Of a DNA stretch of 27,302 bases, positions 2,667 through 18,531 are shown one piece after another (within the stretch, counting starts at the first letter, position 1; every line of letters starts with the position of its first letter). The DNA comes from a virus. The stretch spans positions 1-27,302 of IMG/VR virus record IMGVR_UViG_3300025880_000079; one strand, given 5' to 3'. The notes under the pieces were generated by a model. That model worked only from the letters and a program-made list of their open reading frames with translations. It did not search any database and had not been told where the DNA came from. The position numbers and the translations under genes were made by a program.

Positions 2667-3614
2667 ATGGCCAAGATTATTATGTACTGGTCTAACATAC
2701 CAGCAAAATCAGGTTATACTACAGTTGATGAATGGCGAAATGCAGAGTTACAATTCTCGCCTCATCACGATCTAGTTTTTAAGTCGCATGAAAGATTGGG
2801 TAATGATGTAGAAATTTGGACACATCAAAAGGTGTCTAATTTCAATTATACTGGTATTACTATTAAAGACGCTGGCGAAATTATGTCGCACGATACTTGT
2901 TTTAACGGTTTATCATGGGGACATTCGATCGCATTCATAGCAGATACCGTAAGAGTCAAGAGAGCAAGTGAAGTATTAGGTATTGTACTTGATATGGATT
3001 CTGTTTGTTTAAGACCATTTCCAGAACATGATAGTTGGTTTAGTACTATGCCAGCAAAAATTACTAGCAGTATGGCTCCAAAATGGGGACCAAAGAAACC
3101 GCCAATGACAGTACATGATGGGTCATGGGATGGTAAAGCTCTTACTGCATTTCCAATTAAAATAGGTTCTACTACACAAAAAGAAATGTCAGCCCTAGCC
3201 GATAGTATACACGAGAAATTTAAAACAAAACCTAAAGGTGGTACTGATGAATGGAACTCCATTCTTTGGACAGTAAAGAAGATTGCTAATAATGACACTA
3301 CGGCAAAAGTATTTGAACCGATTTATATGAGTCCATTACCTGCTTGGTTACCAGTTGGTAAATGTTATAGCCTTGAAAGTCCTACTAGATTAGATGGTGT
3401 AACAGAAATCTTTGGTTACCCATTACCTTCTATAGAAGACATAATGAGCAAGTCGTTTATTGTCGCCCATTTCTTTGAGAGTGCATTTCAGAATGCTGAC
3501 CAGATCGAGGCAGACAAATGGGGTAGTATTCCAGACGGCAGTTTGCTAGCGAAAGAAATGGATCTGATAGGATATACACGTGAGAAACCATCATCATTAG
3601 ATGAATTTTTTTAA
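2667..3614 (+). CDS. DxD glycosyltransferase with polymerase-like C-terminal tail
   Basis: This 315-residue protein shows the layout of sugar transferases with a DxD motif (GT32 or TcdA/TcdB-like). After SWGHSIAFIADTVRVKRASEVL comes GIVLDMDSVCLRPF, with the metal-binding DMD at residues 109-111, matching the usual S/A-D-x-x-R ... hLDxDhhxL(K/R)P pattern. The last 17 residues, from IGY through SSLDEFF, match the end of the DNA polymerase at 1020 (IGW through SSLESFFG), a type of tail used to bind the sliding clamp. It immediately follows the 2336 gene and ends the run started by the promoter at 1025. The transferase fold is well supported; the sugar and acceptor are unknown, and clamp tethering is inferred. 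Confidence 0.78.
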   Translation: MAKIIMYWSNIPAKSGYTTVDEWRNAELQFSPHHDLVFKSHERLGNDVEIWTHQKVSNFNYTGITIKDAGEIMSHDTCFNGLSWGHSIAFIADTVRVKRASEVLGIVLDMDSVCLRPFPEHDSWFSTMPAKITSSMAPKWGPKKPPMTVHDGSWDGKALTAFPIKIGSTTQKEMSALADSIHEKFKTKPKGGTDEWNSILWTVKKIANNDTTAKVFEPIYMSPLPAWLPVGKCYSLESPTRLDGVTEIFGYPLPSIEDIMSKSFIVAHFFESAFQNADQIEADKWGSIPDGSLLAKEMDLIGYTREKPSSLDEFF

Positions 3615-3622
3615 AAAAACCC

Positions 3623-3651
3623 TTTACATTGACACTTAATTGTGTTATAAT
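3623..3651 (+). promoter_or_regulatory. sigma70-like promoter, nearly leaderless
   Basis: TTTACA at 3623-3628, a 17-base spacer and TATAAT at 3646-3651, with TG one base before the -10 box. The start point is predicted at A3658, only three bases before the ATG at 3661, leaving no room for a ribosome-binding site on the transcript. A TTGACA at 3629 is only 11 bases from the -10 box and is unlikely to serve as the -35 box. Confidence 0.82.
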
Positions 3652-3660
3652 ATACTTATT

Positions 3661-4581
3661 ATGATATCAGGTACGCTATTCCAATCACTATATAAGACTG
3701 AAACGGTTAACAAGATTGACTTCGATTCATTCAAAGAATTTGAGAAAGTACTATATAAACTCGCCGGTATACCCAGAAAAGATAAGAAATCAGCATATCT
3801 TATGTCACCAGCATCTTACTTAGAAGGTACTACGAGAAAGAATGATAATGTTACTAAATGGGGAAGCTGGTGTGCAGTAGATGTTGATGATTTTACTGGA
3901 GATTTAAAAGAATTTCTGCAGAAGAAATGTGGTAAATACTACTTTGTTTGCTATTCCACCGCATCATCAACAGAAGAAAGTCCTAAATTCAGATTAGTAT
4001 TTCCACTATCCCGTGAAGTTGACAGAGAAGAAATAAAACACTTCTGGTTTGCTCTTAATACAGAACTCGGCGAGATGGGTGACATCCAAACTAAAGATTT
4101 ATCAAGAATGTACTATATCCCTGGCAAGTATGCTAATGCAAACAACTTTATCTTTACCAATGAAGGTGAATATATAGACCCAGAAGTATTAATGGATTCA
4201 CATGAATATATTGAGAAAGGTGGTAACACATTCTTTGATAAATTACCTAAGACTATGCAAGAAGCATTAATCAATCATACAAAGAATTCACTAACTAATA
4301 CAGATGTAAAATGGACATCATATAAAGATTGTCCGTTCTTTCCAAGACAGTTAGAACTAGATTATAAAGTCATAAGTGGATCAGGTTGGTACTATAAGAT
4401 GTATCAAATTATGGTTGCGCTGGCAGGTAACGCTATAAAAGCTAAATACCCTATAACAGCTAAAGAAATTGCGTGGATGTGCAGAGAACTTGATATGGAT
4501 ACCGGTAACTGGTATGATAAACGTCCACTAGATAAAGAGGCCATTCGTGCCTTAGAATATGTAATGAGGAATCAATTATGA
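3661..4581 (+). CDS. primase-polymerase-like protein (AEP-type), conserved in marine T4-like phages
   Basis: This 306-residue protein has WCAVDVDDF early, an acidic D-x-D motif, then CYSTASSTEESPKFRLVFPLSR and later QTKDLSRMYYIPGKY. The order, a DxD motif, a strand ending in S-T with K/R-F-R-hhhPL, then D-x-S-R-hhYhPG, is that of archaeo-eukaryotic-type primase domains found in replication proteins of plasmids and phages. A C-terminal helical part follows (about residues 200-306). The start at 3661 (MISGTLF) is preferred over an upstream in-frame TTG at 3640, because that TTG lies within the promoter between the -35 and -10 boxes. The gene overlaps 4578 by four bases. The primase relationship is from motif order and is tentative; activity is unknown. 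Confidence 0.7.
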   Translation: MISGTLFQSLYKTETVNKIDFDSFKEFEKVLYKLAGIPRKDKKSAYLMSPASYLEGTTRKNDNVTKWGSWCAVDVDDFTGDLKEFLQKKCGKYYFVCYSTASSTEESPKFRLVFPLSREVDREEIKHFWFALNTELGEMGDIQTKDLSRMYYIPGKYANANNFIFTNEGEYIDPEVLMDSHEYIEKGGNTFFDKLPKTMQEALINHTKNSLTNTDVKWTSYKDCPFFPRQLELDYKVISGSGWYYKMYQIMVALAGNAIKAKYPITAKEIAWMCRELDMDTGNWYDKRPLDKEAIRALEYVMRNQL

Positions 4582-14382: not shown

Positions 14383-14459
14383 GCGCCCGTAGCTCAATAG
14401 GATAGAGCAACGGCCTTCTAAGCCGTAGGTTAGAGGTTCGATTCCTCTCGGGTGCGCCA
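14383..14459 (+). tRNA. tRNA-Arg (anticodon UCU)
   Basis: A full cloverleaf of 77 nt. The acceptor arm pairs GCGCCCG (14383-14389) with CGGGTGC (14449-14455) with one G-U. The D arm is GCTC with GAGC. The anticodon arm pairs ACGGC with GCCGT around loop CTTCTAA, giving anticodon TCT. The T arm pairs AGAGG with CCTCT around TTCGATT. CCA is encoded at 14457-14459. It reads AGA and AGG; AGA is common in the AT-rich genes here, so it likely supports phage codon use. Confidence 0.97.
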
Positions 14460-14878: not shown

Positions 14879-15265
14879 ATGGCATACTCCGCTAAAGTTT
14901 TAGATCATTATGAAAATCCACGCAATGTTGGTACTATGGATGAGACTGATCATAATGTTGGAACAGGTATGGTTGGTGCACCCGCTTGTGGTGATGTAAT
15001 GAGATTGCAGATAAGGGTAGACGATGCAGGTATTATACGGGACGCAAAATTTAAAACTTACGGTTGCGGCAGCGCTATTGCTTCCAGTTCTTTACTTACT
15101 GAGTGGGTCAAAGGTAGAACCCTCGATGAAGCCTATACTATACGGAACACAGAGATTGCCGAAGAACTGGCACTACCCCCTGTTAAAATACACTGTTCTG
15201 TATTGGCCGAAGATGCAATTAAATCCGCGGTGGATTCACTAATAAAAAAAGGATGGTATGATTAA
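14879..15265 (+). CDS. iscU: IscU-type Fe-S cluster scaffold
   Basis: This 128-residue scaffold assembles iron-sulfur clusters. All three ligand cysteines are present: Cys37 (GAPACGD, with the key Asp39), Cys63 (YGCGSA) and Cys106 (IHCSV). The HscA chaperone recognition motif LPPVK is intact at 99-103, so it is an IscU rather than a SufU or NifU fragment, and it can probably hand clusters to the host HscA/HscB system. Length equals that of bacterial IscU. It overlaps the following A-type carrier gene by 8 bases. The cysteine desulfurase (IscS) must come from the host. Confidence 0.96.
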   Translation: MAYSAKVLDHYENPRNVGTMDETDHNVGTGMVGAPACGDVMRLQIRVDDAGIIRDAKFKTYGCGSAIASSSLLTEWVKGRTLDEAYTIRNTEIAEELALPPVKIHCSVLAEDAIKSAVDSLIKKGWYD

Positions 15266-15578
15266 ACTAACAGATTCAGCAATACACCAAGTTGCAAAAC
15301 ATATATCAAAGAGAAGTGGCACTTTGGGTGTGCGATTAGGGGTGAAGAATTCCGGTTGTAGTGGTTTCTCTTATGTATTGGAATTTGTTGACAAGCCAAC
15401 AGCAGATGATACTATAGTCCAAGCAGGTGATGTAACCATAGTACTAGATTCTAAGAGTGCTATAGTATTAGACGGCACAGAGCTAGACTATACCCGACAA
15501 GGGTTGAATGAGGGGTTTGAGTTTAAGAACCCCAACGTCAAAGCAGAATGTGGTTGTGGAGAGAGTTTCACAGTATAA
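15258..15578 (+). CDS. iscA: A-type Fe-S carrier protein (IscA/ErpA/SufA family)
   Basis: This 106-residue HesB-type protein has the conserved cysteines Cys34 (NSGCSGF), Cys98 and Cys100 (AECGCGES), which carry a cluster from the scaffold to target enzymes. The fold hallmark VRLGVKNSGCSGFSY and the C-terminal CGCGESF match the family. The start lies in the end of iscU, a coupled pair. Subfamily (IscA, ErpA or SufA) is not settled by sequence alone. Possible targets include host or phage Fe-S enzymes such as ribonucleotide reductase activators; none is visible in this window. Confidence 0.94.
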   Translation: MIKLTDSAIHQVAKHISKRSGTLGVRLGVKNSGCSGFSYVLEFVDKPTADDTIVQAGDVTIVLDSKSAIVLDGTELDYTRQGLNEGFEFKNPNVKAECGCGESFTV

Positions 15579-15632: not shown

Positions 15633-15661
15633 TTGACAAAGGGTATGAGCCATAGTATAAT
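15633..15661 (+). promoter_or_regulatory. sigma70-like promoter with A-rich upstream tract
   Basis: TTGACA at 15633-15638, 17 bases, TATAAT at 15656-15661. The start point is predicted near 15668. The downstream gene has a good AAGGAGAAT ribosome-binding site (15680-15688) before the ATG at 15693. The upstream tandem A-rich repeats may raise its strength. It is the last of the six promoters of this type. Confidence 0.85.
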
Positions 15662-16037: not shown

Positions 16038-16210
16038 TGTTTGGTAATAAAGATACACTCATCAAAGATATTGTAGAATTAACTTTATCAGAAGATTATG
16101 TCAGAGCGCTTGTTGGTGCTCCCACAAATAAAGAAGAAAAATTCTGTATTTGCGGTGAAGAATTAGAATCCTGTCCAGAGTCCTACGTCCACATGACGTC
16201 AGGAGTCTAG
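16037..16210 (+). CDS. small putative zinc-binding protein
   Basis: This 57-residue protein begins MFGNKDTLIKDIVELTLSEDYV and ends with CICGEELESCPESYVHMTSGV. The cysteines (C-x-C-x7-C) and a nearby histidine could bind zinc or a metal, as in short zinc-ribbon proteins of marine phages with a similar C-terminal end. Function unknown. The ATG shares a base with the previous stop. The GC-rich structured stretch begins directly after its stop. Confidence 0.75.
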   Translation: MFGNKDTLIKDIVELTLSEDYVRALVGAPTNKEEKFCICGEELESCPESYVHMTSGV

Positions 16211-16376
16211 CGGCAGTCGTCACCTACCGGACGAATTAAAGCGGTAGGGGGTAGTGTCCGAACACTCACACGGAAATGAAGAAGTCCGTGATATAGGGAG
16301 ACGAGTCCGGGGTCAGGTTGGTAACCTGTACCTCCCCAAATAACCGACTTAGATGAACGGCCCCGGACTCAACTTA
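16211..16376 (+). ncRNA. candidate structured RNA, GC-rich, between two small genes
   Basis: This stretch has no open gene on the + strand and is much richer in G and C than its surroundings. Stems seen by eye: CCTACCG with CGGTAGG (16223-16229 and 16242-16248); AGTGT with ACACT (16253-16257 and 16262-16266); CACGGA with TCCGTG (16269-16274 and 16285-16290); CAGGTT with AACCTG (16314-16319 and 16323-16328); and an enclosing perfect 10-bp stem GAGTCCGGGG with CCCCGGACTC (16303-16312 and 16361-16370). GTCCGG (16305-16310) could instead pair with CCGGAC at 16227-16232, so alternative folds exist. It ends about 15 bases before the next start. A riboswitch, sRNA or processing signal is possible; I recognise no known RNA family. 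Confidence 0.5.
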
Positions 16377-16391
16377 TTTTATGGAGTTATT

Positions 16392-16703
16392 ATGAATAAT
16401 TATCTAGGTTCTCTGCGTTATGATCCATCTGGCAGAAAAAGAAAGAACGTCCCCGGTCTTAAAAAGAAACGTAAACTCAAACAACAATTCACTGAATTCA
16501 AGCCAGAAAAAAGCTTTGCGCAGATTAAAATGGAAGAATTTAATTTAAAATATCCATCTTATACAGGTGGTAGTAAGTATGAACCCGCTGAAGACCAGTC
16601 GTGGAAAACAGAGGCTTCAAAAAACTTTACTGTTGCTCCTGCATACAATAAAGGTGCATATCAAGTTATACCATCTACTGATGTAAAACATATAGGAAAA
16701 TAA
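16392..16703 (+). CDS. small hypothetical basic protein
   Basis: This 103-residue protein, MNNYLGSLRYDPSGRKRKN at the start, has a very basic stretch (GRKRKNVPGLKKKRKLK) and a hydrophilic rest, so it may bind nucleic acid or the ribosome. I do not recognise it. The start at 16392 has GGAG at 16383-16386; an ATG at 16353 lies within the structured stretch and is rejected. It is directly downstream of the candidate RNA, which could control it in cis. No membrane segment. Confidence 0.72.
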   Translation: MNNYLGSLRYDPSGRKRKNVPGLKKKRKLKQQFTEFKPEKSFAQIKMEEFNLKYPSYTGGSKYEPAEDQSWKTEASKNFTVAPAYNKGAYQVIPSTDVKHIGK

Positions 16704-17029: not shown

Positions 17030-17037
17030 TATAAATA
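17030..17037 (+). promoter_or_regulatory. T4-type late promoter for the capsid-region genes
   Basis: An exact TATAAATA in a 55-base gap between genes, with the start near 17043 and a GGGGA ribosome-binding site at 17059-17063 before the ATG at 17068. It is the best placed late promoter in the window and would open the block of late genes to 26669. Confidence 0.75.
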
Positions 17038-17067: not shown

Positions 17068-18531
17068 ATGAAAAGGTTTAGTCAACACTACAGACAAGAA
17101 ATTCGCGAAGATTTACAAAATCTAAATTTTTCTGGTAATGAAAAGAAATTTGCACTAGAACTTCTTTCAGATATCGACGACCAAATTGGTTCTATAGATT
17201 CTACTATAGAATATGATACCCGACCTAAGAAACAAACTGGCAAAAGACTTGCCATCTCCCAACTTATTGATGATAAAGACAGAGAGAAATTTACTGCTCT
17301 TGCTAATAAAATCATTGATGACCATCCTGAATTAAATAGAGGCGCTGTACCTGGTTCTCGTAAAGAGAAGGACTATGCAATTGTATTTAACGATTTAGAT
17401 AAAACAATCTATGTTAATGTAAGACCAACAGGTAAAAGAAGTTCTGCAGGTGATGATCCGAATGAACTTATGACTGCAGCTTTGTGTCTTAAATCCAAAA
17501 TTGATATACCTACTAATTCAGATGAACTAGATGCATTGATTGAAGATGTAAAGAATAGCCTTGGTGGTGTAAAAGGATATAAAAAAGGCCAAGTTGATGC
17601 ACTAACTGGTGATTATCCAAATATGGCCCAAGCAGTATCTGCTGCTGTAACAATTCACGAGGCTGGATATGGTAATGCAGATAAAGTATACCTCACCGGC
17701 CAAGCATGGGATGATGATGTAAAACAATTCCAAAGAACTAAGTATGGTATGGCAGACTTTAATTCTTCTGACTTTATTATAAAGAAGGGTAAGAAGTACT
17801 TAGGTGTTTCACTAAAGAAAAAGCCATTACCAACTACTGGTGATCCAACTCTAATCAACAAAGCATTCGCTAGTCTTTTATCTGGTTCTCCAGAACTTAA
17901 AAAGGTGAGAGAAGGAATTGAAAAAGATGCTGGAGAATTCTATGTTCATGTAATCAAACTTGCGGCACGATTGAAAAAGTTATCACCAGATATGATGGCG
18001 GATTTAAAGAAAGATAAACCTACAAGCACAAACTGGAAACAATATATTCAAAGAATACCCAACGACTTAATTAATACTATGTTAAAGAGAAAGAGAACTC
18101 TCTTTGCGGTCATGGGTGATACTATTCTTAAAAACGCCGATCTCATTGCTAATCAATTAATACAATTAATATTTAAGGCTGATCTCAAAGAGTTACAGAA
18201 AGTTGACTTTGATTTTACGTTGGTTACAGGTATTGGTGATTATGGTCCTAAGAAAGGTGTAGTTGTTTCTAAAGGAGAATATAAAGACATTAATACTGTA
18301 ACATCTCAATTAGATGATTTGTTTTCTAAGGGGAAACCTAAAATAATATTTACACCAGGCGTAAAACAGGCCTTTGAAGTCGGCGCAACTGCAGCTAACC
18401 TTAAATTTGATTTAATGATTGGTAAAGTAACAGTGTGTAATATTATACTTAGATATAAAGGCGACTTTAGAAGTGCTCCTAATTTTAATGCTGTCATGAC
18501 ACAAGAATTTAAAAACTTATATAAAGGGTAA
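17068..18531 (+). CDS. conserved phage protein with possible PD-(D/E)XK nuclease motif
   Basis: This 487-residue protein of the late block begins MKRFSQHYRQEIREDL. Around residues 230-255 it has GMADFNSSDFIIKKGKKYLGVSLKKKP. The order, Asp, then a strand with S-x-K instead of the usual E-x-K, fits a PD-(D/E)XK-type nuclease core loosely. The rest contains helical and strand-rich parts (SQLDDLFSKGKPKIIF, then a C-terminal domain from about 430). Related proteins occur in marine T4-like phages. Its first residues resemble the M-K-x-F motif of the later genes but lack a clear (L/I)xE|(A/G) site. It is the first gene after the late promoter. Structural or nuclease role is open. Confidence 0.72.
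   Translation: MKRFSQHYRQEIREDLQNLNFSGNEKKFALELLSDIDDQIGSIDSTIEYDTRPKKQTGKRLAISQLIDDKDREKFTALANKIIDDHPELNRGAVPGSRKEKDYAIVFNDLDKTIYVNVRPTGKRSSAGDDPNELMTAALCLKSKIDIPTNSDELDALIEDVKNSLGGVKGYKKGQVDALTGDYPNMAQAVSAAVTIHEAGYGNADKVYLTGQAWDDDVKQFQRTKYGMADFNSSDFIIKKGKKYLGVSLKKKPLPTTGDPTLINKAFASLLSGSPELKKVREGIEKDAGEFYVHVIKLAARLKKLSPDMMADLKKDKPTSTNWKQYIQRIPNDLINTMLKRKRTLFAVMGDTILKNADLIANQLIQLIFKADLKELQKVDFDFTLVTGIGDYGPKKGVVVSKGEYKDINTVTSQLDDLFSKGKPKIIFTPGVKQAFEVGATAANLKFDLMIGKVTVCNIILRYKGDFRSAPNFNAVMTQEFKNLYKG

Follow-up and report, generated by a model that had tools for sequence, protein, structure and literature searches.

The window, 27,302 nucleotides of an uncultured marine bacterial virus (record type virus), carries RecA-like and DnaB-type genes. 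Because of these genes, and because the best matches of the DnaB-type gene are in marine and cyanobacterial T4-like phages, we consider the window to belong to a T4-like marine phage. Between two of its small genes lies an interval (16181–16370) that is a predicted RNA with two domains, the 5' domain at 16217–16290 and the 3' domain at 16296–16370; its helices, the genes on both sides and the promoter before them are on the plus strand.

The gene upstream of the RNA (16046–16210) encodes a Cys-containing protein of 54 amino acids without a Pfam or PHROG match; its stop codon is 6 nt before the first core helix, S1. The downstream gene (16392–16703), with a Shine–Dalgarno (SD) sequence at 16380–16386, encodes a 103-aa protein with a weak match to PHROG 4593 (unknown function) and a predicted structure of low confidence (pTM 0.24). 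The block of small genes is preceded by a sigma-70-type promoter (15633–15661) with 12 of 12 consensus bases, and the RNA is presumably transcribed from this promoter-like site at 15633. A T4-type late promoter motif, TATAAATA, at 17030–17037 before the phrog_3060 gene suggests that the block ends there. Further upstream, a NifU_N/IscU-like gene (14879–15265) adjoins a Fe-S_biosyn/IscA-like gene (15258–15578), possibly an iron–sulphur assembly pair in a phage.

The first-pass annotation described 16211–16376 as a GC-rich, structured stretch in an AT-rich genome, and this holds. The GC content of these 166 nt is 0.536 versus 0.359 for the 27.3-kb window; among 27136 windows of 166 nt only 45 reach this value, the highest one beginning at 16170. 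The minimum free energy is -60 kcal/mol (z = -2.74), and none of 200 dinucleotide shuffles is equally stable. The longest perfect stem, 10 bp, is reached in 0 of 100 mononucleotide shuffles. This stem, GAGTCCGGGG (16303–16312) with CCCCGGACTC (16361–16370), is found where it had been placed, as are the other strings named earlier: GTCCGG at 16305–16310, CCGGAC at 16227–16232 and 16363–16368, GGGGGTA at 16247–16253 and TACCTCC at 16329–16335. The region thus stands; its boundaries do not, since the structure begins already within the final part of the upstream gene and the last helix ends at 16370. The evidence for structure from homologues is much stronger than these single-sequence folding and GC tests.

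The outermost 5' element is the hairpin P0 (TCCTACGTC / GACGTCAGGA, 16181–16204), which overlaps the last codons of the upstream gene and is found in the two-domain class. Its stem, ACGTC/GACGT, has one compensatory change and mismatches in two sequences. In three phages that have lost the gene overlapped by P0 (L041, L137, L138), P0 is retained as a different hairpin.

Homologues and the 5' domain

The first relatives were retrieved via the upstream 54-aa gene, and the region between the genes was strongly conserved there. Other homologues came from DNA patterns, the downstream gene, the gene at 17068 and then the covariance models R1 and R2. By hand count, about 55 other IMG/VR contigs of T4-like marine phages carry the 5' domain, and about 20 contigs besides the window carry both. 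All pattern matches of the 3' domain fall in contigs also bearing the 5' domain, and each of the eight RNA-bearing records searched whole has one copy of the RNA. No match was found in cultured phages, nor in Mosig and HTVC008M, each searched whole. In cellular genomes one pattern had no match, and the second had four, none of them credible: three are not matched by the model, and the fourth reaches 21 bits in a stretch that the pattern itself had selected.

Comparison of these sequences yields a 5' core of about 75 nt, consisting of an H-type pseudoknot (5 bp, 1 nt, 7 bp and a loop of 7–9 nt ending in AAAG) and two hairpins with the conserved loops nCCGAA and AUGAnAA. In the clade of the window, a second pseudoknot domain has been added at the 3' side and a hairpin at the 5' side of this core. 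In the window the pseudoknot, PK1 (16217–16248), is formed by the interleaved helices S1 (16217–16221/16230–16234) and S2 (16223–16229/16242–16248), with a single nucleotide at 16222 and the loop 16235–16241 ending in AAAG. It is followed by hairpin A (16253–16266; loop UCCGAA, 16257–16262) and hairpin B (16269–16290; loop AAUGAAGAAG, 16275–16284). That the sequence can differ under the same fold is seen from the window, TCGTC-A-CCTACCG-GACGA-ATTAAAG-CGGTAGG, and a homologue (L149), ATGCC-A-CCAGCTG-GGTGT-ATTAAAG-CAGCTGG.

Pairing was assessed in an alignment (A5) of 37 distinct 5'-domain sequences fitted to S2 and the hairpins. Over S1, S2 and both hairpins, 93.4% of the cells are paired, and 18 of the 21 pairs are changed on both sides, the sequences being related and hence not independent. 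The covariation score reaches 0.588; shuffles give 0.218 +/- 0.014, and slid structures do not exceed 0.132. S1 is paired in 94.1% of cells and S2 in 89.8%, with both-side changes at ten of the twelve PK1 pairs, including four of the five pairs of S1; for hairpin A the values are 98% and three pairs of four, and for hairpin B 94.1% and all five modelled pairs. The support for S1 is not circular, as S1 is absent from the search model. Moreover, RNAalifold applied to an unfitted alignment (A3) likewise proposes S1, hairpin A and hairpin B. The conservation of AAAG, GGG and CCGAA is inflated, because these motifs were part of the search patterns; the AUGAnAA loop is near-invariant though it was in none of them. 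The number of G-U cells, 32 compared to 10 A-C cells, fits transcription of the plus strand.

Conservation of the RNA exceeds that of the upstream gene and, for most relatives compared, also that of the downstream one. Between the window and eight relatives (the near-identical L009 was left out), the identity of the RNA is 83.4–92.6% and that of the upstream gene 57.8–68.6%, while the downstream gene has 68.6–72.2% in five relatives and 90.7–92.0% in three (L012, L014, L016).

Coding in another frame was rejected, as the frame of the open reading frames that cross the element varies from phage to phage. Thus the checks for lack of covariation and for a hidden coding frame, two outcomes that the first-pass annotation had named as speaking against an RNA, both came out in favour of one. 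A leader peptide starting at the AUG of the hairpin B loop was rejected as well: its frame is not conserved, an SD-like sequence before this AUG is missing in several members of the window's clade, and in L140 the AUG itself is missing. In one phage (L194, about 1490–1540) the AUG of hairpin B is in frame with the next gene (MKTPPTKFKYLKEITKWD...), so the RNA may contain a start codon there.

The 3' domain and comparison with known RNAs

The 3' domain is a second pseudoknot, compared in 17 sequences. Helix P1 (16296–16336; 16296–16300 with 16332–16336) is interleaved with P2 (16303–16370; 16303–16314 with 16359–16370), which encloses the 3-bp hairpin P3 (16315–16317/16325–16327). All five pairs of P1 are formed in all 17 sequences, in the variants GGGAG/CTCCC, GGGGG/CCCCC and GAGGG/CCCTC; the sequence 5' of P1 is variable. 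P2 contains the 10-bp stem noticed earlier, which is genuine and extends to 12 bp, all of them paired in 17 of 17 sequences, with both-side changes at the two inner pairs, 11 and 12. The loop of P3 can pair, as GGY with RCC, with the joining strand; in the window this pairing (within 16318–16345) is probable, on slight support, between GGU at 16320–16322 and ACC at 16343–16345.

Two longer-range pairings suggested from the single sequence find no support in the comparison. The one between GGGGGTA and TACCTCC is absent from most relatives, where the 3' strand reads TAACCCC, TAACCCT and similar; the strand on the TACCTCC side forms the covarying P1 with 16296–16300 instead. The alternative in which GTCCGG would pair with the distal CCGGAC has no evidence, because both segments are separately constrained by helices of their own and phages with the 5' domain only do not have such a partner.

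The view that the element is a structured noncoding RNA outside the standard families is borne out by covariation, the coding analysis and Rfam. In Rfam 15 there was no gathering-level match in the window except tRNA and nothing credible at permissive thresholds, and three other members of the family likewise had no credible match at permissive thresholds. We found no description of this RNA family in the openly licensed literature. A tRNA or tmRNA was rejected, as ARAGORN reports only a tRNA-Arg (14383–14459) in the window. In two other phages (L117, L125) a tRNA-Arg-like sequence with an apparent short insertion in the anticodon region (CTTCTAAGCTCGACTTAGAAGG) is situated about 900 nt upstream of the RNA. 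An intron or insert splitting a gene was rejected as well, since relatives lacking the RNA have an upstream protein that terminates at the same residue, and a terminator was not found by the strict scan for intrinsic terminators.

The operator pseudoknot of T4 gene 32 has stems of 5 and 7 bp. Like PK1, the gene 32 pseudoknots of T4, T2 and RB69 are H-type, stack their stems coaxially, have a very short first loop and come from T4-like phages. Further, the gene 32 operator lies between genes, 5' of the ribosome-binding site, as does the marine RNA (PMC3014915, PMC535899). However, the latter is not upstream of gene 32 and is much more conserved in sequence, and it has two covarying hairpins where the operator has an unstructured UUAAA-rich stretch across the ribosome-binding site. 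No gp32 match was found for the downstream 103-aa gene. In the one RNA-bearing record that has gp32, about 40 kb separate the two, and no copy of the RNA is present in the gp32 leader.

Structured RNAs have been described in marine metagenomes and phages, namely manA and wcaG of T4-like cyanophages and STAXI, which consists of repeated pseudoknots (PMC2864571); their sequence and layout are different, and the marine RNA has no Rfam match to any of them. Related marine myoviruses, phage Melnitz and Pelagibacter phage Mosig, have a glutamine riboswitch and a two-piece tmRNA near early promoters (PMC9004378). Unlike these, our RNA has no Rfam match, tRNA-like domain or tag.

Genomic context and possible functions

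The RNA is always on the sense strand, between genes. S1 typically starts 5–10 nt past the stop codon of the upstream gene, for which there are about six families without relation to each other. The final helix, in most lineages, ends about 20–30 nt before the next start codon, with the SD sequence in between. Exceptions to this layout are L135, L137, L138 and L140, where the stop codon is 35–45 nt away, and the rearranged loci of L117, L123, L143, L144 and L145 described below. The downstream genes form at least six families across lineages: the MNNYLGS and MDYTRIKK families, a Cys protein, MKEHLI, KEITKWD and a ferredoxin-like one. The ferredoxin-like frame replaces the gene after the RNA in L117 (about 3509–3892, reverse complement) and L125; it has two Cys clusters and runs in frame into the next small gene.

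Most relatives of the genes on both sides have no such RNA, and no credible copy turned up at 83 loci where relatives of these genes are present. Relatives of the 54-aa gene of the window occur without the RNA, and most homologues of the 103-aa gene do so; a riboswitch of the 103-aa gene was rejected on this ground. The RNA is intact in one phage (L117) whose upstream gene is truncated and whose downstream gene has been exchanged for another. Two others (L143, L144) have a promoter-like site directly 5' of the RNA, and a further two (L123, L145) a new promoter-like site 3' of it, before the next gene.

Since the RNA persists while the genes on both sides are exchanged, action independent of the neighbours is favoured. 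Our leading, still tentative, interpretation is a previously uncatalogued family of phage noncoding RNAs acting in this way via the conserved loops. The RNA would be co-transcribed with the early operon; once folded, it could act in trans or on the whole transcript, presenting the AAAG, nCCGAA and AUGAnAA loops to a protein or RNA of the host or the phage, and the 3' domain would extend or cap the 5' fold. Covariation, conservation above that of the neighbours, the rearranged loci just described and the 83 RNA-free loci all favour an independent RNA. Against it, a dedicated promoter is absent at most loci, the strict scan found no intrinsic terminator, and the RNA is usually close upstream of an SD sequence, as a cis element would be.

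The latter position, along with the invariable sense orientation, makes an intercistronic control element acting in cis the main rival, a possibility we regard as real but somewhat less probable. A protein operator or small-molecule aptamer would here set the translation or attenuation of the next gene, much like the T4 gene 32 operator, whose pseudoknot PK1 resembles in size, or like a riboswitch, and the conserved unpaired bases would suit an aptamer. However, the next gene varies between lineages among unrelated families, the RNA is missing from most relatives of these genes, the promoter-like site of L123 and L145 separates the RNA from the next gene, and inspection revealed no conserved pairing with the SD sequence.

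Returning to action independent of the neighbours, a more specific version of it is rather unlikely: a new class of trans-acting phage RNA, whose pseudoknot core with three fixed loops would redirect a host machine early in infection by binding, for example, the ribosome, polymerase, a nuclease or a defence factor. Here the core would have spread through marine T4-like phages, with a pseudoknot domain of HDV topology added in one clade. Few structured phage RNAs are known outside introns, tRNAs and tmRNA, and the one described here, carried by more than 50 marine phage contigs and missing from Rfam, is a defined molecule whose partner can be sought. With it one can ask whether noncoding RNA serves uncultured ocean phages in controlling their hosts, or else the early genes of the phages themselves. 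What is new is the RNA family; the mode of action could still prove ordinary.

Two further readings are improbable. An RNA inside operons that depends on position and not on its neighbours could serve processive antitermination, acting on its own RNA polymerase like the put RNAs of phage HK022, but in most lineages it is not near the transcript start, and there are no intrinsic terminators downstream in the region scanned. About equally improbable is an mRNA end, that is, a terminator, processing site or exonuclease barrier shielding the upstream message. In several lineages U-rich sequence comes after a helix, and in L145 the new promoter-like site lies behind the RNA, both of which would agree with it; but the terminator scan was negative, three phages (L196, L212, L217) have no U tract, and a simple barrier has no need of fixed loop sequences.

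It is very doubtful that the 3' domain cleaves itself before G16296 as a ribozyme of HDV topology. It shares with HDV-like ribozymes the order of helices P1, P2, P3, P1', P2' (17 of 17 sequences). The sequence before P1 is variable, and a candidate for P1.1 may exist in the GGY/RCC pairing of the P3 loop with the joining strand (GGU/ACC in 15 of 17 sequences, changed on both sides to GGC/GCC in two). On the other hand, P1 has only 5 bp, there is no conserved P4, and no Rfam HDV match appears even at E up to 10; there is no invariant C before P2', where GAAC, GGAAA, GAGAA and GATC are seen, and hence the domain was not classed as an HDV ribozyme.

Least credible of all is a recoding signal, in which the pseudoknot would stimulate stop-codon readthrough or frameshifting of the upstream gene: the distance from the stop codons of those unrelated genes to S1 is the usual one for recoding pseudoknots, but gaps of 1–11 nt are usual between genes in the window, so that we read the spacing as packing, and neither an extension frame nor a stop codon or slippery site is conserved, the upstream gene being lost in L117 and a promoter-like site occupying its place in L143 and L144. 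As to the promoter-like sites themselves, in L123 and L145 more than one of them comes after a repeated GTTACA-rich stretch (GTTACAATCTTGTTACTTTTTACAATAGC).
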